From Lentinus brumalis (taxonomy: Eukaryota > Basidiomycota > Agaricomycetes > Polyporales > Polyporaceae), in assembly GCA_001792895.1 (NCBI GenBank), contig MARA01000040.1:1-64000 (forward strand): 64,000 bases of DNA. Reading direction: 5' to 3'. Shown here piece by piece: positions 14,868-60,504 of this stretch (the stretch's first letter is position 1; each line of letters begins with the position of its first letter). A program made the translations under genes and the position numbers. Under the pieces are notes generated by a model. It saw nothing but the letters and a program-made list of their open reading frames with translations. It was not told the DNA's origin and made no database searches.

Positions 14868-15799
14868 CTAATTCCTCTCACAGCACGCCGCGACGCCCTC
14901 ACAGCAGCACTCCGCTCCCGCACACGGATCGCACCTCCACAGCGTCGTCACCACCATACACACCCCCATCGGCACCAGCGGCGCACCCAGCCCCCACGCA
15001 CCCACCGCCAGCGCATGCCGCACCCCGAACTCAAACCCCTCCCCCTCTCCCTCCCCCACCGCGTGCTGCAGCCCCGGCACAACCGCCATCCCCACCGCCA
15101 TCGCAAACACCCCCGCCAGCGCCGCAACTCCCAGCGCACCCCACAGCTCCTCCGGCTCATCCGTCCGCGGCTCGAGTTCGACCCGACCTCCGGAACTGGT
15201 CCTGATACTGGTCCCGAGTCCGCAGCCGCCCGCTCCCCCACAGTCATCCGCGCCCTCCGCACCGCAAGCCCCACGAACGCCCCCACCCCAATCACACACC
15301 CCAGCACGCCCGCGCCCACCGCACACGCCCCCGCCTCCGCGCCCCCGCCCCGCGCCAGCATCGCCGCGTACGGCTCGCGCGCCCCCATCCCCAGGAACGC
15401 GAGGTTCCCCACGACCGCCAAGAGCGTGCCCGTGCCGAGCGTGACGGCCGAGCTGAGGATGACGAGCAGCAGGCACATGCGCAGGTACCACAGCGTGCTC
15501 GCGAGTGCGCGGTACCACGAGAACGAGACGTGCGCAGCGGGGACCTCCACTTGGAATTGGAAGCTCTCGAGGTCGGCTGGTCGCGGCTTGGGCGCGTCGT
15601 CGTCCCCGGCGAGCGTCCCGTCTTCGGACACGGCGTCATACGCGTCGGCGGCGGCGGCGGGGAGGAGGGCGTACCGGCCCGCGGAGACGTCGTGCGGGTA
15701 CACGGGGAGCGGCGCGGCATGGCGAGCGTCCGACGCTAGGACCGGCATGGGCAGGAGGCCCTCCCGCGACTCGGAGGCAGACCGCTTGAGGTAAGACAT
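14868..15799 (-). CDS. TM-A: four-helix membrane protein of the array, apparent frameshift
   Basis: Start 15799 is preferred to an upstream Met at 15877 because a TATAAA box sits at 15892-15897. The N-terminal 100 residues are polar (RYALLP, DLESFQ, VEVPA motifs shared with TM-B). Helices follow at about 105-135 (YLRMCLLLVILSSAVTLGTG), 155-180, 220-247 and 265-290. The third helix carries FAMAVGMAVVPGL, the array signature. The tail is cysteine-rich (CDPCAGAECCCEG). The first two helices are in one frame and the last two in another; a one-base change between about 15175 and 15245 joins them and gives a protein collinear with TM-B. No known family is recognised; probably an integral membrane protein. 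Confidence 0.7.
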
Positions 15800-15891
15800 C
15801 GTGGTATGAAACTGATAAGTGATGGTCGCAGGTTCAAGGTCGAAGTAGGAGCGGGGAGCGGGGTGCAGACCTCGCACGAGTGGACGCGTCG

Positions 15892-15897
15892 TTTATA
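15892..15897 (-). promoter_or_regulatory. TATA box of TM-A
   Basis: TATAAA on the minus strand, about 95 bp before the TM-A start. Confidence 0.55.
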
Positions 15898-16470
15898 CGT
15901 GCGCATGCAACTCCGCGCATAGCCCCGGCAAGAGGGACCTCGACAGGCCTAGGACAAAAACACAAAAAGGCATGAGCGCGCATACTAGCAGAAGACCATA
16001 GCGGTACCGGGTATTGCGATGCAGGACAAGGACAATGCAACTCGAGCTTCCAGAACTCGCAGTCGCTAGGGAGGTCCACCACGAGGCGATGTGGTCGCGG
16101 CGTCAGCTCAGTTGTCTCCTACGACGATACTAGACTACGACCGAACGAGACGATTCAGCGTGCGAGACCTCCGGCTTCGCCAATGAGAGGATACTGCGAG
16201 GCCCATACTAATTGTCATTGAGAAGGCCCTCGGAGGACCCAGCGCACACTTGGACAAACCAAGCCTTCTGACGGTCGACTGAATGACATTGTTATGTAGT
16301 ATACAACGCGTATGATCTACGACCCTGCGGTGACTGTATGCCACGCGGCCAATTGTCTCGTCGCTAATAGTCCCGAACGTTCCTCCCAACAATCGCAGCA
16401 GTGCGAGTAGGCCAGGATAATCGCACCGCCTCACAGGAGAGTCGGACGAAGGAGGCAAGAGGAGCGGCGG

Positions 16471-16550
16471 GAGGCAGAGCGGCGTGCGAGCAACGCTATC
16501 GTGGCGGTGGCGAGAACCCGTCCCTGGAAAGGCAAGTCTTGTCGTTCTGC
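16471..16550. repeat. Array upstream repeat, copy 1
   Basis: Shares gaggcagagc, gtgcgagcaacg, tcgtggcggtggcgagaa and ggaaaggcaagtc with copies at 18481 and 20426. In this copy the left arm of the hairpin (gccgccacgagg) is missing. It lies about 670 bp upstream of the TM-A start. Confidence 0.7.
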
Positions 16551-17018: not shown

Positions 17019-17807
17019 CTATCTGCGGCAGCACCCCTCACAGAAGCACTCCGCCCCCGCACACGGATCGCACATCCACAGCGTGGACGCGAACATACAC
17101 ACCCCCATCGGCGCGAGCGGCGCACCCAATCCCCAAAAACCCACCGCCACCGCCTGTCGCACCCCGAACCCCTCCACCGCCAGCCCAGGGACGACAGCGA
17201 CCCCCACAGCGAGCGCGAACACGCCCGCCAGCGCCGCCACGGGCAGCGCCCACAGCAACTCCGAGTCCAGCTCGGGCTCGTCGTCGTATGACCTCGCAGG
17301 AGAACTCAGGACGAGGTGCACGAACGCCAGCAGCCCGGTACTGCACCCCAGCACGCACGCGCCCACCGCGCACGCCTGCCACTCGCGCCACCCCGCGGCG
17401 ATCATGGAGGTGTACGGCTCGCACCACGCGAGCCCGGCGAGGTTCCCGATGAGGACGAGGACTTCGCCCGCGACGAGCGTGGCTGCGGTGCAGAGGATGA
17501 CGAGCACGAGGAGCATGCGGGTGTGCCAGACCGCGTTGCTGATGGCGCTTGACAGCGAGCGCGACGGAGGTGTGGCGGGGACTTCGACTTGTAGGCTCTC
17601 GAGGTCTCCGGTGTGGGCGACTCGGGAGGGAGAAGGCTGGGGTTGGGACTGGGGCTTGGATGGGTCTTGGTGTTCGGCGAGCGTCGCGGTATCCGAGCCG
17701 GAGTCGGACGCGGCGTCGCTTGTCGGGAGGACGGCGTACTGTCCGCCCGCGTCCTGGAGGGAGACGGGGAGGATCGCGGGGCGAGGCTGCGGCGGTTGCC
17801 AAGGCAT
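17019..17807 (-). CDS. TM-B: four-helix membrane protein of the array
   Basis: A single open frame of 262 residues, the best intact reference for TM-A. The first 90 residues are polar with QYAVLP, a stretch rich in Gln/Pro/Ser, DLESLQ and VEVPATPP. Helices lie at about 95-122 (MLLVLVILCTAATLVAGEVL), 135-158 (ACAVGACVLGCSTGLLAFVH), 172-198 and 210-238. The third helix contains ALAVGVAVVPGL. The short loop after helix 1 has CEPYTSM, like EPYAAM in TM-A. The C-terminus is cysteine-rich (MCDPCAGAECFCEGCC), which could be palmitoylated or bind metal; that is inference. No enzyme motif is visible. Confidence 0.8.
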   Translation of the reverse strand: MPWQPPQPRPAILPVSLQDAGGQYAVLPTSDAASDSGSDTATLAEHQDPSKPQSQPQPSPSRVAHTGDLESLQVEVPATPPSRSLSSAISNAVWHTRMLLVLVILCTAATLVAGEVLVLIGNLAGLAWCEPYTSMIAAGWREWQACAVGACVLGCSTGLLAFVHLVLSSPARSYDDEPELDSELLWALPVAALAGVFALAVGVAVVPGLAVEGFGVRQAVAVGFWGLGAPLAPMGVCMFASTLWMCDPCAGAECFCEGCCRR

Positions 17808-18480: not shown

Positions 18481-18570
18481 GAGGCAGAGCAGCGTGCGAG
18501 CAACGCCGCCACGAGGCTACCGTGGCGGTGGCGAGAAGCACGGCCCGGAAAGGCAAGTCAAGTCGTTCCA
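18481..18570. repeat. Array upstream repeat, copy 2, with hairpin
   Basis: Full copy. It contains an inverted repeat cgccacg / cgtggcg around aggctac (18503-18530 region). It lies about 674 bp upstream of the TM-B start, the same distance as copy 1 from TM-A. Confidence 0.75.
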
Positions 18571-19061: not shown

Positions 19062-19790
19062 TCAAGCCGCCCCCAGGCTCTCCGCATCTGACCTGCCTCC
19101 GCACGAACGCCACACACCAACACCCACGCATCCCAGCAGCAGCAGTTCCGGAACGACCGCCAGTACCTCCGCCAACATCGTCACCGTGGCGATCGCAGAG
19201 CCATCCATATCCGGCTCCCGCAGAAGCAGCATGCCTACGGGGAGTGCGAACGCTCCCGCAATCGGCACGAACCACCCTCCTCCGGCCCAGATGTAGTGCA
19301 ATTCGAATGCCTGCGTGAACACTGCGGGGTCCTCGGGCCAGTCGAACCCGCCTCGGGTGCACCGAGTCAGTGTCCAGTATACGCAGAGCACGAGCCCGAG
19401 CACTGCACCGAGAGTCGCGGCGCCCATGAGGGCAGCTTCGAAGAGAGCGTCATCCGAGGTGGGGAAGTCGGGGAAGAGCGAAGCGGCTGCGGCGATGAAG
19501 CCCCACGCGATGCAGCTGCATGCGAAGGTGAGGAACGTCGTGCATAGGATGATGAACATCCAGCAGACGGCTGTCTTCCCGACGCGGACGTAGAGTGAGA
19601 GGGAACGCGGTGGCGGAGAGGTAGCGGTCGCAGACGAAGGGCGTACAACGTCATCTCTATCGGCCGCGGGTAGATCTACAACGGAGTGAGGAGCGTGACT
19701 ATTGAAATCGGGGAGAGGTGGATAGGACTGGCAGCCAGGACCGACGACGGATATGTAGCCACGACCATCGGGACGGCGGGACGGCGACAT
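19062..19790 (-). CDS. TM-C: four-helix membrane protein of the array
   Basis: 242 residues from ATG 19790, chosen because a TATATAAG box lies 80 bp upstream. The N-terminus (about 75 residues) is polar and proline-rich (SYPPLPDF). Helix 1 is CWMFIILCTTFLTFACSCIA. Helix 2 starts after the acidic TSDDALFEAALMG and reads TLGAVLGLVLCVYWTL. An aromatic loop (DWPEDPAVFTQAFELHYIW) is longer than in TM-A/B. Helix 3 is VPIAGAFALPVGMLLL with the array signature, and helix 4 is VPELLLLGCVGVGVW. Tail is short and polar. Unknown function. Confidence 0.78.
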   Translation of the reverse strand: MSPSRRPDGRGYISVVGPGCQSYPPLPDFNSHAPHSVVDLPAADRDDVVRPSSATATSPPPRSLSLYVRVGKTAVCWMFIILCTTFLTFACSCIAWGFIAAAASLFPDFPTSDDALFEAALMGAATLGAVLGLVLCVYWTLTRCTRGGFDWPEDPAVFTQAFELHYIWAGGGWFVPIAGAFALPVGMLLLREPDMDGSAIATVTMLAEVLAVVPELLLLGCVGVGVWRSCGGRSDAESLGAA

Positions 19791-19869
19791 CGTGATAGGA
19801 ACGCTGTGGCGGGAGAGGATAGAAGTGTCGCAAGTGTCGAGCCCGAGGATCCAGAGACATGGACGAGGG

Positions 19870-19877
19870 CTTATATA
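19870..19877 (-). promoter_or_regulatory. TATA box of TM-C
   Basis: TATATAAG on the minus strand, 80 bp upstream of the start. Confidence 0.6.
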
Positions 19878-20425
19878 GTCCGACCACCACCATAGCGCCT
19901 GTGAGGCGAGGGAGGAGATGCGCATGCAGCGAGATTCTGAGGCGAGGAACGGAGCGTGGTAGAAATGCCTGCAACATCCTTCGCAACCAATCACAACTAG
20001 CACAATAAGCAGGTGAGCGCATAGAACAGTATCAATGGTACTCACAAGAGCAGCACGGTTCTGGTACGGCGTCGTACTATTCGACGACTCACACTCATCC
20101 TGCCAGTCACCCTGATGGACGAGTAACTCTTCGGCACGTTGTCTGTTCTGCCGCGCGTGTTCGCATGCTAGGGCATAATGTCGCATAGCAAGAGCACTGC
20201 ACGTAGATCTGAAGTTGAACTTGCGCAGCCTGCTCGAGTATCCGGGCGGCCACTGCCATTAGAAGCTTGCTCGCGATGAGAGCTTAAAAACCCCCCGAGC
20301 TCGAGCTGTCCTCGCATACGTGATCACGAGCTTCTCGAGTGCACACATGGCAAATGTTCGCATTCGAGATGGACGGACCAGTGCGGGAAGCAGTACGACC
20401 GAAGACAGTGGCGGAGGAGGACAAG

Positions 20426-20762: not shown

Positions 20763-21323
20763 CTAGCAATCTGCACCGTCGTACAAGTAGCCCAACAAGA
20801 GCATCACCGGCCCACCCAACAGCGCGAGCCCCAACGCCTCGGCTTCCAACGCACGCAGCGCGCTGAACCCGTGCAAGTCCACTCGGTGTGTACTCAGCAG
20901 GACCGCAACACCTAGTGCGGGGACCAGGCTCCCCACATATACTGCGACAACCAGAAATCCCAGCGCCGCCTTCCGCCCAGAACGGACGAGCGGGCTCGAC
21001 GGTGCGAACACCCCGACAGCGGCAGCTCCAAAGACGACTAGCCCGGAGACGATGGCCCAGCCAATGACGAGCGCGTTGGTGAGCTCGCTCGAGTTTTCGT
21101 TCGTCTTCCCGCCGAGGATCGCGACTCCGATCCCGAAGAACGTGAAACTCGCCACGAGGAGGGCAATGATGATGACGACGAGGCGCGTTATGGGTTCCTC
21201 GAGGAACTGTGAGAATCGGCTGGCGTCCCATGGCTGCGTGTACCGAGAGGCGGCGTCGTGTCCGTATGGGTGAGTGGCGCGGGAGTAATAGAGAGGAATG
21301 TGCGACTTCGTGGCGGCGGGCAT
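20763..21323 (-). CDS. TM-D: short four-helix membrane protein of the array
   Basis: 186 residues. The N-terminus is only about 45 residues, rich in His/Tyr (PLYYSRATHPYGHD). Helices: LVVIIIALLVASFTFFGIGV, ALVIGWAIVSGLVVFGAAAV, LGFLVVAVYVGSLVPALGVA and a C-terminal ALGLALLGGPVMLLLGYL. The third helix has VPALGVAVL, a variant of the array signature without the proline at the usual place. A TATATA box lies 78 bp upstream of the start. Unknown function. Confidence 0.75.
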   Translation of the reverse strand: MPAATKSHIPLYYSRATHPYGHDAASRYTQPWDASRFSQFLEEPITRLVVIIIALLVASFTFFGIGVAILGGKTNENSSELTNALVIGWAIVSGLVVFGAAAVGVFAPSSPLVRSGRKAALGFLVVAVYVGSLVPALGVAVLLSTHRVDLHGFSALRALEAEALGLALLGGPVMLLLGYLYDGADC

Positions 21324-24300
21324 GGTAGTGAGTAGCAGGTTTGGGGAGAGGGCAGATTGATACGGGCGTAGATGCGGAACTGTGTCCGTACCCAGAAGAA
21401 TATATACCCAGGGCATCAGACCCATTTCCTTGCTCCTCCTCGGTGCGGACACGCGGTTTCGCGAGGAGGGACCATCTGGGCAAGTGCGCCACACAGCCCG
21501 TCTGGACAGCCTAGTAACAAGGACCTGCAGGAGCGACACCGTAGCCTTGTGCCGTCGGGCTGCACACCGAGCGGCGCCACCCGAGGCCGTGTACGCAGCG
21601 TCCGCCGCCATGGTCCTCGCGACACTCTATCCATTGACCCGCCAGGTAAGCTATCAATAGTGGGCGTAACGCAGCCAGTGCACGTCGCTGGACCATGGTA
21701 TACGGTATCTCAGCCTCTGACGTCGGACCCGGGCTGCAAGATGGATCCGAAGAGGGCCAGGGCGGCTCGCCGCAGGACAGACGATCTTGTGCGCAGCGTG
21801 TGGTATGTATGGTACTAGTGTCAGTTGCCTCCATGGAGCTCCCCGGTCGCCACGGATATGCGTATCGAGTCGGACGAGTTGCGCTCGACTGTGCGAGTGC
21901 GAGAAGACGCATCAGTACAGCCCAGAAGGTCTTGTGTCGTCCCATTGTGTCTTTTTGATCAAATAAGTCGATCAGAACACAATCGGTACTTCGTATGCAT
22001 TGAGACTCACTCAAACTTAGAATAAGATCGTTCCATGTGTGCAGGCGCACCCACAGTTCGACCATACTATTAGAAGCAGAGAATCCGAGCACATGGGCGC
22101 GCACGAAGGACTCCGGCCGCGAATCCCCCACCACGCGGCTCAGTACGGCTTCGAAACCTCCGGTAAGCAGTGCGGAGCTACTAAATCCGTAATTTTCGGT
22201 ATGGCTGTGGTCTAGATGTAGAGCACGGTCAGTCAAACTAGCTAGAGTACACGATCCTTGAGAGCACAGTACATACCGTCATCACCGCAAGTCGGAGGTC
22301 CCACATTGATCAGTCATCCTGGCCTACGACCTCATGATAATCTTGTTCTTTGAGTTCTTGCAGAGAGATAACAATTTGGAGAAGCGTTGGTACGAAACGG
22401 CATGGAGTCGAGGACAAGAGCAAAGACATGATCGTCTGGCGCCCTACGCGCGTGGGCGTGACCGTGGGATCAAGCGCCGTTCCCGACCCTGTTCGCATTG
22501 TTCCGTCGGTCGTACCGCTATCAAAGCAACCACAGCGTACGTCAAAATCGCTGGAAGGCTAACTCGGCGAGCTCGTGAGCGTTTTATCTGGAATTTGCGT
22601 GCATACGTTACTTACTATTGGTCCAGGTCGCTTCAGCGCGACGCGCACGAGCAGATCAGGGTTGATCTCACCCGGATTAAGTATAGGTTCACTTCCCTCC
22701 GTACTTATGATTCCGTCTACGTTGACTGAAGCTGTATTCTTCAGTAACTTCAGAAGCATTGCGGTGCATGAGTTTAGAACGCTGTGCGGCTTGCAAGGCT
22801 GCGACTAGGACTCTAGCGGTGCCCCAGGCTCTGAGCCGTCGACACCTCTCCAGTCGGAAGGGCGATCAGCTGAGCCCGAATATGGGATTCGGAAAGATCC
22901 CGCCCGCTCTGAAGAACTCCGACTCTGTGACCGCGGAACAGGCTCTGCGAGGCATGCATACCGCTGACTCCTCCTCCGAGCGTCAACCCTCTTGGAGACC
23001 ACGTACGCTCGACCGCCGCACCTCCCCGTCCGACCGTCTCCTTCCGCCTGTTCCCTCGCCCCAAGGAGCCACCTCGTATCCGTCTACACAACAATAATCA
23101 GCTTCTACTGTACGACAGGCCTTGTTCCGGATGTTCCCGCCGGCGTTCTCGTCGTGCCAGCGCGAGGTTGGCGGCGCCCTTGGGCCTTCTGTACTGTGGC
23201 GAGTTCCTGCTGACAAAAGACTGTCGCCGCCGCATGAAGATCTGGTAAGCGAGATGGCTTTTAATCCCTCTGCTACGTAGTCTGACCTCTGTCCCCGCCC
23301 CGGCGTTGCCCCTACACATCTGCTCCTCGACATTCAGTCTCCCGGACGACAGAGTCGCCTCTATCCTACACGCGATGTCCGCCTCCAGCTATTGTCTCCA
23401 ACTCCTCAACACGAGAAATGTATCATCCCTCTGCTCCGTAGTCTACCCTCCTTCGCCTCTTGATCCGCCTAGTACACCCTCGACGCCCGGACTCCCGCAT
23501 AATAACTCGCCTCTGGCCTGCACGCAACATCTACATCCTCTATTATCTCTCAACTTCCCGACATGAGCCTGGTATACAACGCGGTCGAACTAAGCGACGT
23601 GAACATGAGGCCCACCTCCCATGGAGGATACGGGGCGAACTGTTTGTCGTCGTCGTCGTACCGAGACGCGGCGCGTTGAGCAGTTGTCGCGATAGCTCAT
23701 GAGTCCCCCAGAATTTATGTCCATGCAACGCGATAGGTGCGTCAGTATACCCATTCGCCGTTTCGATGTGCTGACCCATGCGCTCCTCGCCATCGCCCTC
23801 TTCTGCCCGACGGCTTCCCTTCATCTCTGCGTCTCCACCTCATGACGCCACCCTGATTCTTGGGCCATCCTCCTCATCTTCCGTTCCCCCTATTACCGAT
23901 CGCCGACCATCCTCTTGTGCGTCTGAAGCACCCCCCGTCCCTGCGAGTCCGAGGACGCCTCCGAAGCTGGCCAGCCACGAGTCGCGGCGGCCTCCTCCTC
24001 CTCCTCGTCCACCTGACGTCGCCACCACACCGATAAGCATCTTCATTGAGTCGCTTATGGGTTCTGATTCCTCCGTTCGCCATCGCTACGCCAATGCTCT
24101 GCAGGAGCAGCTCGCCACCACGCTGGGCAGACACATCAGGATCAGACTGAGGGCGGGAGGACCCGGACGCCTGACGTCAGAGTTGTCCGCCGCAGAAGGT
24201 ACGGTTCCGATGCTAGACTCTCGTTTCTTGCTCTGTAGTATCGTACGGTGCGTTGATCAGTGCCTCGACAGTGCCGCTTTACCTCGACTGCGTGAGGAAC

Positions 24301-28082: not shown

Positions 28083-28657
28083 ATGTCCATGCAACCGAGC
28101 CCCCACTCATCCCGCCGCAGTGACGCTGCTACCCAAATCCAACATAGTTCCAAGGCGGAATGTGCAAGTCCTCAAACGGCTTCGTGCAGTACTACCACCT
28201 CATCTGTGGCGTTGTCTACACGCTCCTCTTCTCCGTCGCAGGCTGCTGCGTCTCCGTCCAAGTCATATCCGGCCTCTTTCCCCGCCACGCCCTCGATGCG
28301 GACGCAGCACTGCTCGCGTGTATGGTCGGGAGTGTGGCGCTCGGTCTCTCGACCGCCTCAGTCCTCTCACGTCTCTCGTCAGTCCCAAAGCGAGGTGCAA
28401 GCAAGGCCGAAGAAGCGTCGTCCATACACGATCCTTCGCTCGTCGTCGGGAGCCTGCTCTCGAGCGCCCCTGCGATGGCGGTCGGGATGGCGGTCGTCCC
28501 GGGTCTGGCAACGGAGACCTTTGGGGTACGGGTGGCGTTGGTGAGGGGAGTGTGGGGTGCGGCGTTTGTCGCGTTGTGCCTCTTCTTGAAGTGGACCGGG
28601 TGGTTCGACAAGCCGGAGCCGCGGGTGATTCCGCTGCAGACGGCGGTTCGCCGATGA
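28083..28657 (+). CDS. TM-E: four-helix membrane protein of the array, apparent frameshift
   Basis: The frame from ATG 28160 gives 165 residues with helices FVQYYHLICGVVYTLLFSVA, ALLACMVGSVALGLSTASVL, SLLSSAPAMAVGMAVVPGL and VWGAAFVALCLFLKW. The third helix is nearly identical to that of TM-A (AMAVGMAVVPGL). An upstream ATG at 28083 opens a polar Ser/Gln-rich N-terminus (MSMQPSPHSSRRSDAAT) like other members, 64 bp after a TATA box, but in a frame one base off. I therefore suspect the gene starts at 28083 and carries a one-base lesion near 28160. One of three members on the plus strand. Confidence 0.68.
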
Positions 28658-32729: not shown

Positions 32730-33887
32730 CTATTCTCGCCGACGCCATCTCCACAGGCATATCAGCACGACCGGGAGACCCAGCGAAAGACAAGCCATAG
32801 TCACAACACCGATCGCCACCGCGTTCACCAAGACACCCTCCCTAGCACGGAACCCGTCCGGCTTCCCAGATGCGGCCATCCCCAGGGGAAGAGCAGTCAC
32901 CGCGAGCAACAGGAGCATCGCGCAGACCACCTGCGCGACGAGGTCGTCCCGCAACCTCGGACTCGCCCTCCTCGCATCCATCTCCTGCACCAGATTCATC
33001 GTCCGGTGAACCCTGCTTGCTGTCCTGCCCTTCTCGCGCCTCCATACGGCTACACCAGCGAAGGACCCGCCGACCAGAACGATCGCGACGAGTGCCGTGA
33101 CTGCCGCCACAGCCATCGCCTGCACTGCGGGAAGGTGGTCTCCGGCGAGGTCGCTGTAGAGCACCGCGCCGAGGGCGGCCAGGCACGTGCTGAGGGCCTC
33201 CGACAACACTCCACACGAGACCACCCATTTCCAGCTCGCGACGCCATGACGTGCTCCTCCCTCCCGACCCTCCTGCTTCGTACTCGGAACCACAGACGTG
33301 ATAGACAGATTCCCTTCCTCCGGAATGTATTGTCCGTGAGAGATGTAGGACTCGGAGGACTTGGACTCGAGGTTTTCGCGGAACTTGGAGTCATTTCTGG
33401 TTTGATGGAGGGTGTGGAGTGTGGAGACGTGCTGTGGACCTGGATGGAATTGACTCGGAGGCCCGGGTGAAACTGCGTCCGACGTGTCCCTGGTATCCTC
33501 GTTACTATACACGACGATGTCGCTCCCGTCATAGCTCGAACGTGGGGAGGATGTGTGCATGAGGGTGCCTGGCATATAGCGCGACGGTGGCGAGACAGCA
33601 TCGTCCTGCATATCCCTAGCGCTAGACGGGACTGCTCTAGTAGAGCTGGCGGTGAGCGGCAGATTGTTTGTACGATCTTGCTCCCTTGAGCTGGGTGTCT
33701 CTTGAAGCGGAGGCGGGTTCTCGACACCATTGTGCGATCCGTGAATTTTTGACAAGTTGGTCGGCTTGCACGACCAGTACTCTTTCGCCCAGTCGTCCGG
33801 TGGGAGCTTGTCCCTCAGGCTAGGATGGCCAAAGGCCGCTTCAACGTCATGAGTCTCTACGGCTCCGTCTCCTAGACCCATAGTCAT
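32730..33887 (-). CDS. TM-F: array member with a long disordered N-terminus
   Basis: 385 residues, the largest intact member. The first 220 residues are hydrophilic, Ser/Thr/Pro/Asp-rich and presumably disordered. Four helices then follow: VVSCGVLSEALSTCLAALGAV, AMAVAAVTALVAIVLVGG, VVCAMLLLLAVTALPLGMAA and AVAIGVVTMACLSLGLPVVL. The third holds ALPLGMAASGKPDGF, the array signature. Between helices 2 and 3 is a basic 45-residue loop (RREKGRTASRVHR). The C-terminus is RRRRE-like (CLWRWRRRE). A TATAAA box is 82 bp upstream. Confidence 0.78.
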   Translation of the reverse strand: MTMGLGDGAVETHDVEAAFGHPSLRDKLPPDDWAKEYWSCKPTNLSKIHGSHNGVENPPPLQETPSSREQDRTNNLPLTASSTRAVPSSARDMQDDAVSPPSRYMPGTLMHTSSPRSSYDGSDIVVYSNEDTRDTSDAVSPGPPSQFHPGPQHVSTLHTLHQTRNDSKFRENLESKSSESYISHGQYIPEEGNLSITSVVPSTKQEGREGGARHGVASWKWVVSCGVLSEALSTCLAALGAVLYSDLAGDHLPAVQAMAVAAVTALVAIVLVGGSFAGVAVWRREKGRTASRVHRTMNLVQEMDARRASPRLRDDLVAQVVCAMLLLLAVTALPLGMAASGKPDGFRAREGVLVNAVAIGVVTMACLSLGLPVVLICLWRWRRRE

Positions 33888-43866: not shown

Positions 43867-44706
43867 ATGTCTAGGCAGAAATTCAACTCCACGAACGCGG
43901 ATGAAGTTAGCACTTCTCTGCTGATCTCTGCGAGCTCGGACTATACCCCGTCAGATCCTCCGCCATCCTATGCCTCTCTCCCTGTCCATCCAAGCAACCC
44001 CAGTCGGAGATCGGCTCGATTCGCTCGCATGTCCACTCGTCACCAGGACGAACTGCGGTTGCAAGCTTCCTCTACCGACTCTAGAATTCTAACATGCGAA
44101 TGGAGTACCGGATACGAGCCCGCCACAGCCATGTTCGAAGCTCCTGGGCCGCGCGTCGCCGCTGCGCCGAGCAGCACGTACGGTACCCCGCTCCATCTGG
44201 AAGGAGGGACCGTAGCCGAGCCTTCGACGTTGCGGTCTCGCTTCCACTCAACATACGACAAGGAGATGCTTCATCTCTCTGCGCTGGCTGTCTTCGCACT
44301 ATGCTGCGCGGCCCCGACGTACAGCCTCCTCATCCAATCCCTAGCCCTCTCGATATTCGAACCAGACACCGCTCCCTGGGTCGCGCTCAACATTTCTGCG
44401 CTCATTCTCCCAGCGATGCTCGGTGGCGTCCTCCTCGCCATCTTACTCTTCGGGCCCATCCTCTTGCTCACGCTATGGGTGGGCGGTCTCGAGTGGAACG
44501 TCCCGTACGGGCTCGTGTTGGCGAACATCCCCATACTCGTCGGGACCGCAATTCTGCCACACGCCGCTCTACGGCAGGGTTCCACCATCGTCCATGCCAT
44601 GCAGCTTGTTCTCTGGGGTTTCGTGCCGCCGATGATGATCGTCGGTGCGCTCGGATGTGTTGGGCTTCTCGGAGCGGGCCTCATCGCATGTGGTGCAGAA
44701 TGTTGA
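43867..44706 (+). CDS. TM-M: four-helix membrane protein of the array, plus strand
   Basis: 279 residues. The N-terminal 135 residues are polar and include DPPPSYASLPVHPS, a PPxY motif of the kind bound by WW domains of Rsp5-type ubiquitin ligases. Helices: LSALAVFALCCAAPTYSLLI, WVALNISALILPAMLGGVLL with ILLFGPILLLTLWV, LVLANIPILVGTAILPHAAL and WGFVPPMMIVGALGCVGLLG. The signature is ILVGTAILPHAALRQG. The C-terminus ends in cysteine (CGAEC). One of three members on the plus strand. Confidence 0.78.
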   Translation: MSRQKFNSTNADEVSTSLLISASSDYTPSDPPPSYASLPVHPSNPSRRSARFARMSTRHQDELRLQASSTDSRILTCEWSTGYEPATAMFEAPGPRVAAAPSSTYGTPLHLEGGTVAEPSTLRSRFHSTYDKEMLHLSALAVFALCCAAPTYSLLIQSLALSIFEPDTAPWVALNISALILPAMLGGVLLAILLFGPILLLTLWVGGLEWNVPYGLVLANIPILVGTAILPHAALRQGSTIVHAMQLVLWGFVPPMMIVGALGCVGLLGAGLIACGAEC

Positions 44707-44815: not shown

Positions 44816-45398
44816 TTACAAGCGGACATTCCACATCTTATACAGCGCGCAACCCGCCGCCCCGAGAAACCCGACAACAACACCGGGCACCAACATGCCG
44901 ACCACGCCCACCCATGAGTGCGTTTACGGCGCTGATACTCGGGCTACCAAGAGCCATGACCCCGATGGCGGGAGCGACCGCGCCGCCCAACACAGACATC
45001 ACTGTGGCGTGGATCCACAGTTCCCGTCCGACCCGTGCTGCGAACGAGCTCGCCACACCGCCCCTGGGGAGAGGAAGAGACAGCGTAACGTACGTATACA
45101 GCACGAGCAACACTGCGCTTCCGTAGAAGGCAGAACCACAGAGTGCGATCCGGAACGGGTCGTCGGCCTCGAGCCAGGCAGCAGACAGACGGCGCAAGGA
45201 AGTGGTGGTGGCGAGGAGCGCGAAGAGGAAGCTGGCTGTGGTCGTAATGGTAATGGTCGACAGCACGAGGTAGAAGGGGCCGAGGAAGAGATCGAGTGCA
45301 CGGGCTACCAGGGCACGGACTGCGTGCGTCCTTGGGACCGTCCGCTTGCGGTTCGTGGACTCGAATTCGGTAGTTGGTAGGATGTCAAAACTGGGCAT
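44816..45398 (-). CDS. TM-N: four-helix membrane protein of the array, apparent frameshift
   Basis: Start 45398 (MPSFDILPTTEFES) is preferred; an upstream Met at 45530 is only 27 bp from a TATAAG element. Helices: FLGPFYLVLSTITITTTASF, ALCGSAFYGSAVLLVLYTYV and VMSVLGGAVAPAIGVMALGS. After NALMG the frame turns into a Cys/Arg-rich run. One base fewer in gggtggg (44907-44913, plus-strand cccaccc) restores a normal fourth helix, VGMLVPGVVVGFLGAAGCAL, ending at a TAA at 44816-44818. The loop LEADDPFRIAL before helix 2 is typical. Unlike the other frameshifts this needs a base removed. Confidence 0.68.
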
Positions 45399-46024
45399 CG
45401 TGTGACCGTGCTGGACCGCTGGTATTGAGCTGTATGTAAGATAGACGCAGTATAACCGGTCGTACGCCACAGGGAAGTGGGGGAGCTTTCGAGAGGACGG
45501 CGGATTGCGACCTGGCTGCAGGATGTTCATCACATCGGAGGCTGGGTAGCCTCGGTCTTATACGTACTTCTAGAGTGAAATGAGTATAATAGTCAGCTGA
45601 GAAGACAATAGACGAGGGAGAACTTACTTCGCTACCGGCGTGAGGTGCCAGCCCGATGGCGGCGGAGCTGTGGCGGCACGTCAGATTGCCTCTGGAGGCT
45701 AGGTCCGTAGACAGGTAGCCACGGCCCACTCACCACTGTGTCAACTCGTCCTGGTTAGTCTTCACTCCTCTCACAAGTGCATCACTTGTTAGAGTCAAAG
45801 GGAGCACTTACGGTCATGCGATTGCGCATAGTCCCTGATTGGTCACATTCTCGAGGATGATGGAGGAGACGGTAAAGAGTAACGAGGACGTGCGAAGGAG
45901 AGAATGAGAATCAAGATTTCATAAGGAGTGGCTGACCTGCAGCGGTCGATTCATTTAAATTATACAGGGTAGCGGAGTCATATAAATAGGAGCAGACAGG
46001 GGGGCGTCATAGACAACACGGATC
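45399..46024. other. Intergenic, TM-N upstream
   Basis: No other gene recognised. Confidence 0.5.
45557..45562 (-). promoter_or_regulatory. TATA box upstream of TM-N
   Basis: TATAAG on the minus strand, about 160 bp before the preferred start at 45398. Confidence 0.4.
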
Positions 46025-46837
46025 TCAACGAGAGAAAGACTCGAGACACACAAATCTACACGGGTTCTTGTTCAACATGTAAAACAACGCGAACTGCAGA
46101 GGAAAGCCAACCACCACCAGTCCCACTAAGCCACGCATCCACATGAGGTACTTGTCGTGAGGCATCGGAGCGAGGAAGACACCTATAGCGATGGAAGCGA
46201 TGGCGGTGGGGATGCACTGAACGACCAATCCACACAAGTACGCGTGGAAGCCAGGATAACCGCCGCGGGGTCTCCACGTCTTCCGCACCAGCGCGATGAC
46301 GGACGCAATCGGGATGACGGCCGCGTACACCACAGCAGATCCGTACAGAGAGACGAACAACGTCGCGTGGATGAAAGCTGCATGTAGCTCATCGGACGAT
46401 GGGGAAGGGGTGAAGGGGAAAATGTCGGGGTCAACTTGTGCTGGGTCATAACCACCGGTCACTTGCTCGCCGACGACCAGGTATGTGACGCTCATCGCGT
46501 AGGTGACGCCGAAGGCGGACACGGTCGCCACGACGCATGTAAGGATGCGCAAGGCCACCCCGCCACGAGTGACTTTCTCCATGCCGAAGAAGTTGCGCTG
46601 GGCCCGATCACGAATGCGGACGCTGAATTTGTGCGGTCGGGCATCCGGTGCCTCGAGGTCGATGTCGACCATGGTCGCTTCGTCGTCATCGTAGACTCTA
46701 GGGTGCAGACCGAATCTGTAGGGCTGAGGGTGTTTGGGAGAAGTAGGCGTGGAAGAGGGAGTGTGGGGGGCGGAATCGTCGTGAGGAGACGCCGTCGTAA
46801 CGAATGTCTTCATAGCAATTGGGGCTGGGACCGTCAT
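46025..46837 (-). CDS. TM-O: four-helix membrane protein of the array
   Basis: 270 residues from ATG 46837; a longer in-frame Met at 46933 lies upstream of the TATA box at 46916-46923 and is rejected. Polar N-terminus of about 100 residues (SSTPTSPKHPQPYRFG, then acidic YDDDEATMVDIDLEAPD). Helices: GVALRILTCVVATVSAFGVT, FVSLYGSAVVYAAVIPIASV, IPTAIASIAIGVFLAPM and LVGLVVVGFPLQFALFYML. A 45-residue loop after helix 1 holds FPFTPSPSSDELHAAF. Signature: IASIAIGVFLAPMPHDK. The basic loop between helices 2 and 3 has RKTWRPRGG. Confidence 0.78.
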   Translation of the reverse strand: MTVPAPIAMKTFVTTASPHDDSAPHTPSSTPTSPKHPQPYRFGLHPRVYDDDEATMVDIDLEAPDARPHKFSVRIRDRAQRNFFGMEKVTRGGVALRILTCVVATVSAFGVTYAMSVTYLVVGEQVTGGYDPAQVDPDIFPFTPSPSSDELHAAFIHATLFVSLYGSAVVYAAVIPIASVIALVRKTWRPRGGYPGFHAYLCGLVVQCIPTAIASIAIGVFLAPMPHDKYLMWMRGLVGLVVVGFPLQFALFYMLNKNPCRFVCLESFSR

Positions 46838-52254: not shown

Positions 52255-52974
52255 CTATACACAGTACTTGCTTACTGCCCTGAACATCCCGAGAACGACC
52301 CATAGCACAACACGCAAGAGCAGACGGAGAAGATAATGTAAAGCGACTTGAATCAAGACAAAAGTAACGAACCCAAATATACCAGTAACAAAGGCACGTC
52401 CAGCACTGAACCCGTCCAGCGGCTGCAGCACGACCCCGACGCCAGGCCCAATCACGGACGCCACGATGGTCCCTGGAAAGGCGAACCCTACCACGTATTC
52501 CCAAACACCTAGTCGGCGTTTGTGCGTCATGAATCGCTGCACTTCCAGGACGGCCATCCCGATGCATATCCCGCTGCCAACCACTGCGCATCCGACGGCG
52601 ACGGCGCGCATGACTTCCGGCCTAAAGCACCACTGCGATCTTCCCCGACATGTCTTCATCAGCGGATCCACAGAGTAGTGGAATTGGAGGGAGCCAACGA
52701 GGATGGATGAAAGGCCGAGGACGAAAGAGGCGGCATAGAGGAGGAAGGCCGCGCCGAGTGCTAGTGCGATGCTAATCCCGACGTACCAGCACGTCTTGAA
52801 GGGAGCAACGCGCTTGGCGGGTCGTACTATGGTGCATCGCGGGTCCTCGGGATGTACAGGAGCGACGGCGTATGGCATCCGCGTGGCAAAAGAGGCTGTC
52901 GACGCATTGAAGGCATCTGTGCACTCGCCCACGGCCTGCTCAGGACGTTCAGATGGGGCGGGAATTGGGTCCAT
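52255..52974 (-). CDS. TM-P: four-helix membrane protein of the array
   Basis: 239 residues. Polar N-terminus of about 60 residues (MDPIPAPSERPEQAVGE). Helices: YVGISIALALGAAFLLYAAS, AVAVGCAVVGSGICIGMAVL, GFAFPGTIVASVIGPGVGVV and GIFGFVTFVLIQVALHYLL, with a further hydrophobic run VVLWVVLGMFRAV at the end. Loop 1 is long with paired cysteines (KTCRGRSQWCF), which could form a disulfide if extracytosolic. Signature: VIGPGVGVVLQPLDGFS. The TATA box is 61 bp upstream. Confidence 0.8.
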   Translation of the reverse strand: MDPIPAPSERPEQAVGECTDAFNASTASFATRMPYAVAPVHPEDPRCTIVRPAKRVAPFKTCWYVGISIALALGAAFLLYAASFVLGLSSILVGSLQFHYSVDPLMKTCRGRSQWCFRPEVMRAVAVGCAVVGSGICIGMAVLEVQRFMTHKRRLGVWEYVVGFAFPGTIVASVIGPGVGVVLQPLDGFSAGRAFVTGIFGFVTFVLIQVALHYLLRLLLRVVLWVVLGMFRAVSKYCV

Positions 52975-53216: not shown

Positions 53217-54017
53217 TCAGCAAATCTCCAGGCAGCACACCAAAACCGCGCACGAGCACTCGTCCGCGCCAGAATCCTCAGGGCACAAGCACAATAAGAA
53301 CGAGAGGATCTGCACAGGGAGGCCAATCACGACATATCCCATGTACCCGGATGCCACCACCTGGCCCGTCGTCAGTCCAGCGAAGTCGGCGCCGACGCTG
53401 TGTGGATCCACGCGGATCCCGACGGCCATGAAGAGACCGGCCACGGGCAGACAAGCCACCAACACCGTGGTCAAGTATACCCGGGGCCTGCGCGATCCCG
53501 TACCCTTCCGAACGGAACATTCGAGGACGGCGGCGACGAACACGAGGGCGGCGTACACGATGACGCAGCCGTACAGTGCTAGTAGCCACGAGGCGGGCCA
53601 CCAAGGCGGTCGGGTGATATCGGAGTTGGGAGCGGCGTGTTGGGCGGGGTCCGCAGGATAGATGTAAGGCTGGGCGTCGGTCAAGGGAGTCGGGTCCGAG
53701 GGCATCTCCGCGTTATAGTTGAGGATGCTCTTGCCAACCAGCGGGAAGATCGCGCCTGCGACGTACGCCACGAGGAAGAGGAAGAAGGTCACGAATATCT
53801 CGAGCCCGCCGGAGCCGCTATCATGGTAGTCGACAACTTCTGACCGGACGGGTTCGGTCCTCTGCCTAACGCGCCTGGCTCCGTCTTCATTTGCGCCGGA
53901 TGGTCGTGACGGGTAGCGTGGCTCAGAGGTCGGTGGATATGGACAAAGAGTGGCGGTTGAAGAAACGGGGGATAAGGAGCGTGAGTTTATGGCCTGCATC
54001 GGAGGACGAGCAGACAT
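53217..54017 (-). CDS. TM-Q: four-helix membrane protein of the array
   Basis: 266 residues. The polar N-terminus (about 75 residues) ends VRSEVVDYHDSGSGG. Helices: LEIFVTFFLFLVAYVAGAIF, WLLALYGCVIVYAALVFVAA, TVLVACLPVAGLFMAVGIRV and GYMGYVVIGLPVQILSFLLC. The loop after helix 1 is long and aromatic (DAQPYIYPADPAQH and RPPWWPASW). Signature: LFMAVGIRVDPHSVG. The C-terminus is cysteine-containing (CLCPEDSGADECSCAVLVCC). It resembles TM-O in loop length and in the GYPGF/GYMGY-like turn, so the two may be closer relatives. CATAAG lies 52 bp upstream. Confidence 0.78.
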   Translation of the reverse strand: MSARPPMQAINSRSLSPVSSTATLCPYPPTSEPRYPSRPSGANEDGARRVRQRTEPVRSEVVDYHDSGSGGLEIFVTFFLFLVAYVAGAIFPLVGKSILNYNAEMPSDPTPLTDAQPYIYPADPAQHAAPNSDITRPPWWPASWLLALYGCVIVYAALVFVAAVLECSVRKGTGSRRPRVYLTTVLVACLPVAGLFMAVGIRVDPHSVGADFAGLTTGQVVASGYMGYVVIGLPVQILSFLLCLCPEDSGADECSCAVLVCCLEIC

Positions 54018-54199: not shown

Positions 54200-54865
54200 T
54201 TATACGGACTTATTCCGTCGACAAAGAAAAGCAAACAATAACAGGCTCACGAGTCCGATTCCGACCGCCACCACACCAAAGCCGAGAGAACCCGCCTGCA
54301 GGGCCTGGACCAACGACAGTCCATCCGGGCCAAGCTGGCCTGGGAGGAACACAAGCCCCACGGCCGTGACGAACACGCCCGCCACCACCGTGAGCCCGCT
54401 CAAAGCCCAGAAGAACCCCTGCTGCCACGAGCGGCGGACGTAGTCCAGCAACCGCGCCACAAGGAGCACGAGGACGCAGCCAGCGCCGTTCACGACGGCG
54501 CACCCGACTGCCGTGACCTCCGCGAACGCGGGCGTGACTTCGCACTTCACGCGCAGCACCGACTTCTCCGCCTTGTACTGCAGGAGAAAGCAGCCGAGTT
54601 TCATGAACGCGGCCGCGAGCCCGAAGGAGACCAGCGCACTGAAGGCGACGACGAGGGGGAATAAGGGGCCCGATAGGGCGGGCATCAGAGCACCGGGGGA
54701 TGCTGTAGCGACGTCGTTGGGATGCTCGGGGAAATCGACTGCATGACGTCGGTCAGGGTATGTGCGTTTCGAATGGGTGATGGAGGAGGTGTCCGAGAAT
54801 CGCGACCTCTTCGACGAAGAGGTGTCGTCCCAGTCGAAGAGAGAGTTACCGTCTGTCGACGGCAT
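54200..54865 (-). CDS. TM-R: four-helix membrane protein of the array
   Basis: 221 residues. Polar N-terminus (LFDWDDTSSSKRSRFSDTSS). Helices: LFPLVVAFSALVSFGLAAAF, VTAVGCAVVNGAGCVLVLLV, FFWALSGLTVVAGVFVTAVG and GSLGFGVVAVGIGLVSLLLF. Signature: VFVTAVGLVFLPGQLGPDGL, with the proline five residues after VG. Short basic tail (CRRNKSV). CATAAG lies 70 bp upstream. Confidence 0.78.
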   Translation of the reverse strand: MPSTDGNSLFDWDDTSSSKRSRFSDTSSITHSKRTYPDRRHAVDFPEHPNDVATASPGALMPALSGPLFPLVVAFSALVSFGLAAAFMKLGCFLLQYKAEKSVLRVKCEVTPAFAEVTAVGCAVVNGAGCVLVLLVARLLDYVRRSWQQGFFWALSGLTVVAGVFVTAVGLVFLPGQLGPDGLSLVQALQAGSLGFGVVAVGIGLVSLLLFAFLCRRNKSV

Positions 54866-55949: not shown

Positions 55950-56510
55950 ATGTCTTCTTCCCACCTCTATCATCGACGATCGTTCCTCGTAGGCTCCTCG
56001 TGTCACCAGGATGTTGAGCCCGCCACAACCTCTACATCCGACATGACAGCCCGTGATCCCATGACGAAGGCGGAAATCCTCATAATCGCCTTCCTCGCGG
56101 TCTTTGTCCTACCCACTATCCTCGGCTCAATCAGCTGTGCTATGCACTGTTTCCCCCTCCTCTTCTTCCAACACCAATCACCGTACTCGGCCCTCACTCC
56201 ATCCACAGCCACCCACGTTAAACTCACGATGTCGGGCTCCCTGATCACCTCCGTGCTTATTTACGGCCTGTGGTACCCTGTGGAGAAGATCTTCGGGAGG
56301 AGCTGGATCGTACGCTGTCTCCTCGTCGCTGTATTGAGGACCTTCCCTTTGGCCGCGGGTGTCGCAGCTGTTCCCAGCGCTGCGCCGGCCGGATTCCATG
56401 TCGAGCATGGGGTCACAATCGGGCTCTGGAGCTTGGTACCCGAATTAACCTTCCTGGTCGGCTTCGGTGCGCTCATGAAGCGTTGCGGCCTCCTTCCGAG
56501 ATTCTCATGA
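55950..56510 (+). CDS. TM-S: four-helix membrane protein of the array, plus strand
   Basis: 186 residues from ATG 55950, or 155 from ATG 56043. The second is attractive because the TATA-like tatatta at 55938 is too close to the first. Helices: ILIIAFLAVFVLPTILGSIS, MSGSLITSVLIYGLWYPVE, CLLVAVLRTFPLAAGVAAV and GLWSLVPELTFLVGFGALM. The loop FFQHQSPYSALTPST contains the PYxA motif. Signature: FPLAAGVAAVPSAAPAGF. Short basic tail. Confidence 0.75.
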   Translation: MSSSHLYHRRSFLVGSSCHQDVEPATTSTSDMTARDPMTKAEILIIAFLAVFVLPTILGSISCAMHCFPLLFFQHQSPYSALTPSTATHVKLTMSGSLITSVLIYGLWYPVEKIFGRSWIVRCLLVAVLRTFPLAAGVAAVPSAAPAGFHVEHGVTIGLWSLVPELTFLVGFGALMKRCGLLPRFS

Positions 56511-57363: not shown

Positions 57364-58097
57364 GGCGGTGGAATGCTGTTGGTAAGGGGGGAAGAAGGGT
57401 GCGAGCGGCGGGGGAGCTGAAAGATAGCGTCGCATTATATTCCCTCGGACGCCGCTCCTCACGAAGTGTCCCTCGGGATCGTGCTGTCCAGGCCTAGGCA
57501 AACCGTCGCAAGGGCAAGACACACAAAAGAGATTCTTCTTCAGGCGCAGGTGCCTCCCGCCCAGCATGCTTCTAGTGCGTCCGAGGGCGGTGATGTTATG
57601 TACGAGCGAGATGGGACCTAAAACAAGAACATATCAGATAAGGTCTGCAGGTTGCAGCAGCGGAATGAAACGCTGATTACTGGGTACTAAGTTTTGATTA
57701 CTGACCGGTGACCGCTCGAGCGTATTGCGAGTGGTGTACAAGGTCAGCGCCGCGCTTGTGTGCGGTTTTGCTGGAGTTGGTATGCGCATATGGTGTAAGG
57801 AAGTAGTTCGCGCCGCCATTAATAGAGACCTTCGCTTGAGGAACGCGAGATTCGTCGATGTTCTGGCCTTCCCCGAGCGGGCTGAGCGAGGAGGAGGAGG
57901 AGGAGGAGAGGAAGGTAGTCAAGAGCGAGGGCATGTCACGAATCGATCCGGAGCGCTCGACTTATACTTGAGTTGAACCAATGTTCGAACGCAGGTTCCC
58001 GATTCAAACTTCAACCTGTACTTGACCTCGACTTGACCTAGTACTCGACTCTATGGATTACTGCTTGACTCTATGATATGTACAACATGCGCGCAAA
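57364..58097. other. Intergenic, one possible small gene
   Basis: A minus-strand ATG at 57934 opens a 78-residue frame (MPSLLTTFLSSSSS, then VSINGGANYFLTPYAHTNSS) preceded by a TATAAG about 30 bp away. No family is recognised and it may be chance. The rest is empty. Confidence 0.3.
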
Positions 58098-59076
58098 CTA
58101 CCACACGACGTCTGTCCGATTTCTTGGGCAACAGGAGGGCGGAGGGCGAGGGAGACATCGCTCTGAGTCGCCGACTTCTCGCTCTACCCTCGCGCATCGA
58201 GGATGGGCCGCACGATACTCGCGCGCACGCAAGACTCGGCACACCGCCGACATCGCTCCTCGGGGAACATACAGGATCGCCGCGCCGACGATGTTCGTCA
58301 CCGCAGCATCCCTCGCGTCCATGGGTACGAGCGCAGAGTGCTTCAGCAGCGCCGCCCCGAGTGCGCCGACCGCAGCGGCGCGTGCCATGCAGAGGGGTAT
58401 CCCGAGCCACAACGGCCATACCCCGCACAGTTGCGTGCGTATCGGTGAGTCTGCTCTCTTCTCGAAGTCCTCGTACCACTCCGATTCGAGTTGTCGCGCG
58501 CTCGGGGAGGGCGGACGGCGTAGCTCTAACGGAGGAGGTGGCGGAGGTGATGGATCTGAAGAGCAGCTGGCTACGCAAAGGAAGAGGAGCGCGACGGAGC
58601 TGCAAATGCAGATGGCGTGGAATGTGATGGCGCCGACTAGGCCCGTCGTTGTGGCGGCGACTATGCGAACGTCGTACGCGACGTCGTCCGGTCGTGTGAG
58701 GCGCAGGATGGTGTGTCCGAGCAAGGAGTTCGCGGCGCCGTTGAGACCTTGCGGCACTCCGAGCGCGAAGGCGACGTGGAAGATGTCAGTTGCGCAGCTC
58801 CATGGCGGCCTCCTGGGGGAGGCTTCCGGACTCGAAGGCTGGAACTCGTCGTGATTCGTGCGTCCCGCAGGCTCCTTCGTCACGGGAGTCACCACGGCGT
58901 ACGAATCGACGATCGTTTTCACGGAACTGAGAGAGGAGGAAGATGGGATGCGCTTGAGGCCCTCGTCGAACGCATGGCGAAGTCCCTCTATCGTCCAGAA
59001 CGGCTCGACAACCGTCTGCTCCGACGCAGAGTCGCTCTTGACAGGGCCTGATACGCTCTCGTCAACCAAACCTCAT
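58098..59076 (-). CDS. TM-U: divergent array member, start uncertain
   Basis: The open frame of about 320 residues has no ATG at its start. The nearest ATG (59076, MRFG) is one base out of frame and would join if one base of tttggtt were removed; alternatively a 5' exon exists. The N-terminus is polar (SGPVKSDSASEQTVVEPFW). Helices: FHVAFALGVPQGLNGAANSL, VAATTTGLVGAITFHAICIC with SSVALLFLCVAS, CMARAAAVGALGAALLK and TNIVGAAILYVPRGAMSAV. A proline run (DPSPPPPPPLELRR) lies between helices 2 and 3. The third helix resembles TM-V (GAAAGALGARIL). The C-terminus is Arg/Cys-rich. TATAAG at 59186-59191 is about 110 bp upstream. Confidence 0.6.
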
Positions 59077-59739
59077 GAGAAGTGCAGCTACAGTACTCAC
59101 ATGTTGCGCGCGTAGGTAGCGACATGTGGCCCATCTTCGTTGCGATACTCAGTGGGATGCACAGACCGTCCGTCCGAGACTTGTTCTTATACTCCTTGAA
59201 GGAGATCGCTGTGGCCCTTGTGCATCATTGCAGCTCGGGCCACAAGCGTATCATCATTCCTGCGAGCGGTGTGGCGTTTTCGCACTCGAATCTCTGAGAG
59301 ACTTGGCGGTGATGACTGTGCGTGAGTCGCCGGCCGAGAGATACCACTCTTTGCAAGCGTCCATACTGTGGGCAGACATAGAGGAGTGAACAGAAGATGA
59401 TCGATGAACTCAGAACTGCAGTCTGCTGATGTTCTGCGAGCGCTAAGCGCACGCATATCGGGTTCAACAAGACATGTCATGGTCTGCTGGACGGTGCAGG
59501 ACAATAATCATTTCTGAGACATAGCTTTGTCGACCACGAAGAAGCACGAAGAGCGCTGTCTTCGATGTCCCATACAGTCGCCGCTCAGGTACATGGAGAC
59601 GCTAGGACCGAAATTCTCTCGAACCTAGCGCTGTACAAGCAGCCTGCAGGCTGTATCAGGCTGTATCGTATTCAAGTTATGTCATGGCTACAGACGAATA
59701 CATCTGTTCGGTTTGCATTGCTCTTGTACGTTCGAGACC
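59077..59739. other. Intergenic, no gene seen
   Basis: Only the TATAAG element of TM-U is notable. Confidence 0.5.
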
Positions 59740-60504
59740 CTACACATTCGACCATCCGTTCGCCCCCGGCAGGATCTCCCTTCCGTAGTTCAGGTGGTTC
59801 TTCCTCACCATATCCTCCAGCTCGCAGGGAGCCTGCTCGGAATGGTTGTGGTTCGTTGGCAACTCTGGCTGAGACGGGTCCTTGTTCTTTCCCTTGCGGC
59901 CCAGCACCGCAAGAGTGAGAACGCCGGCGGAGATGACGGCAGCTCCGACCGCGCCCATGCGAGCAGCGTGAAGCGGGTCTATGCCGGCATCCGCGCCCCG
60001 ACCATGAAGAATCCTGGCTCCCAATGCGCCCGCTGCGGCCCCGTTTGCGACCTCGATGCACACTTGGACGAGAAGTGCTGCCAGTCTGATACCCCGGGAC
60101 TCGGGCCGGGGGGCGTCGCTGAGCCACTTCGTGCAGACGATACTGAGCAGGGGTAGTGTGACCATAACGCCGATGAGGTACAGCATGGCTCCTCCAACAG
60201 CACCGAGGTGGACGACGTTGATCCCGGCCGTGTGGTACGCTGCATCTGGGTGGGCAGCGCGAAGGATGGCGTGGCCAGCGAGCATCGTTAGGAGTTGTCC
60301 GAGCGCACCGATTGACGCGACGACTATGACGAGACCAAGGATGAAAATGAAGTAGATCAGGGTTTTCTGCTTCACTTTGCGCAACATGGTATGCAGGTGC
60401 GATCCGTCCGCGGGCTTGCAGTAGACCCGGAAGCTGACGCCGGTGAGGGAACTGTCCTCCACAACGGTGGCAATGAACTGCTTGAGGACTACGTTGGATG
60501 GCAT
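59740..60504 (-). CDS. TM-V: divergent array member
   Basis: 254 residues. Unlike the others the N-terminus is short (about 45 residues, MPSNVVLKQFIATVVEDSSL) and the polar part is at the C-terminus (SQPELPTNHNHSEQ). Helices: LIYFIFILGLVIVVASIGAL, VVHLGAVGGAMLYLIGVMVT, ALLVQVCIEVANGAAAGALG and MGAVGAAVISAGVLTLAVLG. The third helix and its following GADAGIDPLHAARMG match TM-U, so U and V form a subgroup. A TATAAAA box lies about 165 bp upstream (60668-60674), which leaves room for a 5' UTR intron. Confidence 0.72.
   Translation of the reverse strand: MPSNVVLKQFIATVVEDSSLTGVSFRVYCKPADGSHLHTMLRKVKQKTLIYFIFILGLVIVVASIGALGQLLTMLAGHAILRAAHPDAAYHTAGINVVHLGAVGGAMLYLIGVMVTLPLLSIVCTKWLSDAPRPESRGIRLAALLVQVCIEVANGAAAGALGARILHGRGADAGIDPLHAARMGAVGAAVISAGVLTLAVLGRKGKNKDPSQPELPTNHNHSEQAPCELEDMVRKNHLNYGREILPGANGWSNV

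Follow-up and report, generated by a model that had tools for sequence, protein, structure and literature searches.

An array of small membrane-protein genes beside a telomere

The first 64,000 bases of a Lentinus brumalis contig (GenBank MARA01000040.1; C72 in our numbering; 367,699 bases, from an assembly of 53.4 Mb in 136 contigs), hereafter the window, contain an array of about 21 genes for small four-helix membrane proteins, TM-A to TM-V, between positions 14,868 and 60,504 (Table 1). The contig opens with a telomere repeat, (CTAACC)n, and the array starts 14.8 kb inside it, in agreement with the position beside a telomere that a prior sequence-only reading had given it. The roughly 21 loci named by that reading were also found, 18 as ORFs (open reading frames) running from ATG to stop and three (TM-A, TM-N, and TM-U) as broken ones.

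Hydrophobic segments were defined by a 19-residue Kyte-Doolittle mean of at least 1.6. Of the Met-started ORFs in the window, 118 were 100 amino acids (aa) or longer; 19 of these had three or more segments, and all 19 lay inside 17,019-60,504. Thirteen had exactly four segments, TM-B, TM-I, TM-N, and TM-S had three, and TM-C and TM-P had five; TM-A and TM-U, each with two clear segments in one frame, bring the total to 21. Four helices were assigned by alignment to each of the 18 intact members, in line with the layout proposed earlier, and no ORF with three or more segments arose in any of 20 dinucleotide shuffles.

In a control scan of stop-to-stop ORFs of at least 60 aa, three or more segments were present in 19 of 431 ORFs at 14,868-60,504. 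The remainder of the window had 0 of 190 such ORFs, the adjoining 40 kb 0 of 422, and eight loci fetched by a kinase search 0 of 269; for four other telomeric ends the counts were 0 of 342, 0 of 356, 0 of 391, and 1 of 375 (1 of 1,464 overall). With the threshold lowered to two or more segments, there were 23 ORFs in the array, 1 in the remainder of the window, 5 in the kinase loci, and 1, 6, 1, and 8 at the four other ends; the adjoining 40 kb still had none, and a single ORF turned up in one of the 20 shuffles. Because an ORF scan undercounts intron-bearing genes, these contrasts partly reflect intron content. In all 20 member ORFs, GC content was highest at third and lowest at second codon positions (GC3 > GC1 > GC2), as measured in the member frames alone.

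The frames had been described as intact, which is true of 18 of the 21 genes. A strict pattern search found no canonical intron that would rescue TM-A, TM-N, or TM-U, and these were therefore classed as incomplete or broken, although their defects could also stem from an assembly error or an intron of unusual type. A 174-aa open frame with two hydrophobic segments, at 26701-27225 within the array, was listed by neither family profile and may be a decayed member.

Table 1. Positions and properties of the telomere repeat and the array members
Feature	Position	Strand	Length (aa)	Remarks
Telomere repeat (CTAACC)n	1..118	.		
TM-A	14868..15799	-		Broken; helices split over two frames (1-2 and 3-4); closest full-length relatives P0003-P0005
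TM-B	17019..17807	-	262	Open; L. brumalis and P. arcularius orthologs; modeled with four helices
TM-C	19062..20186	-	374	Missed by first profile run, recovered by later leave-one-out
TM-D	20763..21611	-	282	
TM-E	28160..28657	+	165	Nearest member TM-B
TM-F	32730..33887	-	385	Marginal member
TM-G	36132..36695	-	187	Clusters with TM-H and TM-I
TM-H	37312..37962	-	216	Ortholog P0008 (P. arcularius)
TM-I	38508..39107	-	199	Tandem sister of TM-H; ortholog P0006 (P. arcularius)
TM-J	39777..40493	-	238	Kin of TM-K; tied to other members by PY loop motif only
TM-K	40732..41208	-	158	Length from first ATG (at helix 1); kin of TM-J
TM-L	41828..42532	-	234	
TM-M	43867..44706	+	279	
TM-N	44838..45530	-		Broken; frame lost before helix 4
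TM-O	46025..46837	-	270	Clusters with TM-Q
TM-P	52255..52974	-	239	Ortholog P0010 (L. brumalis)
TM-Q	53217..54017	-	266	
TM-R	54200..54865	-	221	Ortholog P0007; four-helix model
TM-S	55950..56510	+	186	
TM-U	58098..59072	-		Degenerate or incomplete; without upstream ATG; likely sister TM-V
TM-V	59740..60504	-	254	Marginal in leave-one-out; orthologs P0011, P0012

Relations among the members

Judged by profile similarity, most members are one homologous family of at least 14 paralogs. When profiles were built without the tested member and its orthologs (a close paralog remained for TM-H and TM-I), 14 of the 18 cores were recovered at E ≤ 1e-3. TM-N, which was never in the training set, scored E 0.17 with the first profile and 6e-5 with the second, and TM-U scored 8e-5 and 8e-4 with two profiles that both included its likely sister TM-V. 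The 18 cores included in the profiles match them by construction. Member identity to the first sequence of the alignment was 15-37% and 15-31% in two alignments.

Several results limit this. TM-F and TM-V were marginal in the leave-one-out test (E 0.017 each), TM-K (E 0.21) and TM-J (E 1.3) were missed, and TM-C and TM-F had failed in the first profile run. The tree has many long branches, and support is good for 9 of its 27 inner branches. The earlier claim of one family is therefore sustained for the 14 recovered members, marginal for TM-F and TM-V, and without leave-one-out recovery for TM-J and TM-K, whose membership rests on a loop-motif pattern picked after the sequences had been seen.

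Close relatives lie near each other in some cases (TM-A and TM-B, TM-H and TM-I, TM-G and TM-I) and apart in others (TM-B and TM-E, TM-O and TM-Q, TM-M and TM-S, TM-L and TM-P), and paralog similarity did not correlate with distance along the array (rho -0.015, p 0.85). Within 400 bases upstream or downstream of the genes, the top counts of shared 7- to 10-mers did not exceed those of random windows.

The earlier reading had recognized no named family, which was borne out for 20 window ORFs, for which every Pfam row listed was under the curated cut-off and no tetraspanin or WTF row appeared at E ≤ 1. Among 26 aligned members, for which 25 of 28 families were shown and cut-offs were seen for one member, the best E value was 0.0068 and no family was common to more than three members. 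A sequence search of the PDB with the profile returned one row (E 0.81), judged to be chance. Foldseek gave no match at E ≤ 0.001 to PDB structures or, for the TM-B query, to viral models, and the best VIA fold rows were receptor helices covering part of the bundle, a generic likeness. A literature search, in which few subscription journals were covered, found the family named in no title or abstract opening. Together the members appear to be an undescribed family of small membrane proteins and apparently a lineage-restricted, clustered set.

A single locus, as far as tested

Whole-genome queries with seven single proteins gave matches at E ≤ 0.01 inside the array only, in a type of search that would miss relatives of about 20% identity; TM-V and TM-M matched themselves alone. 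The best match outside the array (E 0.034) was to a stretch of N-terminal tail, residues 4-55. Besides the window and some short loci, 193.6 kb of outside sequence was scanned with the profiles. Neither the next 40 kb nor any of four other telomeric ends (C4, C44, C55, and C61; 33.6-40 kb each) yielded a member, the best outside E value being 0.056, whereas each listed member, in most cases itself part of the profile, scored at most 8e-4. As far as these searches reach, the family appears confined to one locus, although the 53 Mb could still contain a distant member, because single-protein searches miss relatives of 20% identity. The suggestion that other chromosome ends might carry the family found no support at the four scanned, and, within the reach of the same results and the genome queries, neither did the notion of a subtelomeric expansion. 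The COS/DUP genes of Saccharomyces are likewise small, multi-transmembrane (TM), and subtelomeric, but they occur at many chromosome ends as highly identical copies, whereas the array consists of old, divergent paralogs at what appears to be one locus.

Orthologs and evolutionary rate

Database searches yielded 12 relatives: three from Polyporus arcularius, three from L. brumalis, one from Lentinus tigrinus, and five further ones. The hypothetical-protein orthologs or close paralogs are OH76DRAFT_1199008, 1410062, and 1410072 (L. brumalis); K466DRAFT_597852, 584677, and 597843 (P. arcularius); and L226DRAFT_573093 (L. tigrinus), which the search rows label hypothetical, uncharacterized, or transmembrane with no Pfam domain given. 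The three P. arcularius relatives are inferred to share one contig of 75,013 bases and the three L. brumalis relatives one of 148,076 bases, which would make the cluster, or the part of it that these members represent, older than these species.

Core identity to orthologs was 134/147 and 136/147 for TM-B, 116/133 for TM-H, 131/134 for TM-I, 174/178 for TM-P, 155/157 for TM-R, and 146/165 and 136/165 for TM-V, that is, 82-99% in eight comparisons over six genes. The N-terminal tails of the orthologs were almost as conserved (81-100% over aligned positions). The annotation of P0008, compared with 37312-37962, ends in an unrelated C-terminal tail, which is probably a gene-model error and not true divergence.

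In the tree, end branches of window genes and their orthologs measured 0-0.2 and stems to the ortholog pairs 0.26 (TM-I) to 3.58 (TM-V), while 12 members without an ortholog had end branches of 0.9-3.3. The relatives P0003-P0005 (end branches 0.11-0.35) are nearest TM-A, which outscores TM-B against them in both halves. This suggests that TM-A and TM-B split before the L. tigrinus lineage, a dating that comes from scores, the tree being without TM-A. Another relative, P0009 of L. brumalis, is about 63% identical to TM-H and TM-I alike and joins their group, a divergence that suggests turnover there.

The ratio of nonsynonymous to synonymous divergence (dN/dS) for TM-H and TM-I was 0.30/0.64 at full length and 0.28/0.70 in the core (0.40-0.47), and for the C-terminal part of TM-A and TM-B, TM-A being broken, it was 0.13/0.40 = 0.33. 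These are pair averages, with which selection at a few sites is compatible. Two points temper the picture of conservation: TM-B and TM-E gave 0.93/1.17 = 0.79, near saturation, and a close ortholog was found for only six window genes (TM-B, TM-H, TM-I, TM-P, TM-R, and TM-V). Missing orthologs mean little, since two of the ortholog searches scored 7,995 candidates each. The observed divergence lies among old paralogs and not between species. The rapid divergence read from the sequence alone finds no support in the identities of the six genes, nor does diversifying selection in the average ratios, which are below 1 in all three paralog pairs tested.

Protein architecture and predicted topology

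In the AlphaFold model of TM-B, long helices span residues 85-123, 140-168, 180-205, and 216-245, with a short one at 132-137, and the helix blocks mostly exceed 85 in pLDDT (predicted local distance difference test). The TM-R model has four helices (68-99, 112-140, 148-173, and 185-218). The N-terminal tail is of low confidence in both. In 14 of 18 members, loops 1 and 3 were poorer in lysine and arginine than the N-flank, loop 2, and the C-tail (Wilcoxon p=0.001). This charge bias places both ends in the cytosol, and the predicted topology is N-in/C-in with four membrane crossings.

Median lengths were 22 aa for loop 1, 15 for loop 2, 13 for loop 3, and 16.5 for the C-tail, and outer loop 1 varied from 9 to 49 residues. 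The N-tails are Ser/Pro-rich and, in a few members, short or absent. Conserved glycines occupy one position in TM2 (17/18 members), one in TM3 (16/18), and two in TM4 (13/18 each), and in no helix column does a single charged residue predominate. Cysteine made up 8.9% of the C-tails, 1.7% of the N-tails, and 1.2% of loop 1, and 13 of 18 members have a cysteine at or beyond the end of TM4. Outer loop 2, between TM3 and TM4 (loop 3), had none (0.000 across the 233 loop residues of 18 members).

Other features of the contig and genome

Between the telomere and the first genes lies a Copia-type gag fragment (PF14223, E 1.3e-15; 1105-1656). An ORF at 29924-31492 contains two identical 63-base tandem copies (31249-31376) encoding an Arg/Gly-rich repeat. 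Farther along the contig, at 74-104 kb (L011, L012, and L013), ORFs of equal length and profile score recur (L012:1191-1580 with L013:1257-1646, and L011:6518-7108 with L013:7266-7856), which suggests a duplicated or mobile stretch. Elsewhere, telomere-type repeats away from the contig start, among the matches listed, occurred at C66:204317-204417 and C50:17301-17377, marking either an interstitial telomere or a misjoin; on C66, a gene match lies at 390 kb.

Possible roles of the family

Constrained helices, paralog-specific tails, the predicted topology, and cytosolic cysteines by TM4 led us to propose a tetraspanin-like way of working. By this analogy, which we favor tentatively and at less than even confidence, the array would be an old cluster of membrane scaffold or adaptor proteins, each paralog with its own partner. 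The glycine-packed four-helix core would sit and associate within the membrane; the C-tail cysteines may be S-acylated, a guess from their presence; and binding to a partner or cargo that differs from paralog to paralog would fall to the divergent N-tails and to outer loop 1. Duplicates of long standing would have been retained because each took its own partner, and the losses of TM-A, TM-N, and TM-U would represent slow birth and death.

In tetraspanins, according to PMC2278132, outer loop 2 is large (72 aa in Tsp2) and carries CCG along with other cysteines. The fungal tetraspanins Pls1 and Tsp2, as described there, resemble the array proteins in having four helices, both ends in the cytosol (here predicted), a cytosolic cysteine beside TM4 (in most array members), and a variable N-tail sequence. 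They differ in outer loop 2, which here is short and cysteine-free, and in the tetraspanin Pfam row that is absent here. Lacking the CCG loop, the array proteins are not tetraspanins.

A number of observations count against the scaffold proposal. Five of 18 members have no C-tail cysteine, TM-B and TM-Q hold 13 of the 29 such cysteines, and the helices themselves contain 1.5-4.7% cysteine. The alignment that gave the glycine columns was itself fitted to the family. Polar residues fill one column at the start of helix 4 in 88% of 16 members, so the core has conserved polar positions. The confidence of the TM-R model (pLDDT about 64-84) is below that of TM-B, and the two models were read separately.

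The members might instead be small channels or exporters whose cores oligomerize into pores for ions or small solutes, with substrates differing between paralogs. We consider this unlikely, though it is the strongest of the competing explanations. The lack of a dominant charged helix residue makes a proton- or metal-coupled transporter less likely, and neither the Pfam scan nor the Foldseek search of the PDB offered a transporter or any other match at its threshold.

Slightly less likely still is a surface family under diversifying selection, serving in sensing or self/non-self recognition. The great dissimilarity of the members, the variable length of outer loop 1, the subtelomeric site, the diverged H/I-like copy in L. 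brumalis, and the three broken genes would all fit it. The high conservation of orthologs for six genes (in the few species compared), average dN/dS values below 1 (which are not site-wise), and the lack of members at four other ends speak against it.

A bolder view, which we regard as improbable, makes the family a new basidiomycete tetraspan superfamily, its roughly 20 ancient paralogs at one conserved locus forming a combinatorial cell-surface identity set for hyphal fusion or somatic compatibility. We know of no somatic-compatibility gene of mushrooms that has been identified at the molecular level.

Killer meiotic drivers resembling wtf or Spk-1, in which one gene encodes a multi-helix toxin and an antidote that differ in the N-tail, are very unlikely here. 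Multi-TM drivers with PY motifs in the N-tail are described in PMC10721834, and Schizosaccharomyces wtf and Neurospora Spk-1 share with the array several helices, a cytosolic N-tail (Ser/Pro-rich here), and a clustered family with decayed copies, of which the array has three. Set against that description, however, PY motifs occur in only 2 of 20 array N-tails (TM-K, among the 20, has no tail as called), which makes a wtf-like driver unlikely; the slow evolution of orthologs and the absence of a WTF row from the Pfam scan point the same way. Least probable of all, and largely refuted for the 14 recovered members, is the view that there is no family, only hydrophobic ORFs of independent origin that are alike by composition.

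Clusters of genes for unnamed membrane proteins near telomeres are readily assumed to change fast. At what appears to be a single locus, this array pairs deep divergence among paralogs with conservation between species in those genes for which orthologs were compared, and the surprise is that very old paralogs have been kept at one subtelomeric locus while comparable genes are conserved from species to species. With 18 open genes side by side in common wood-decay fungi, a single deletion would take out every member found, which makes the locus a clean target for seeking a new membrane-organizing or cell-identity system.

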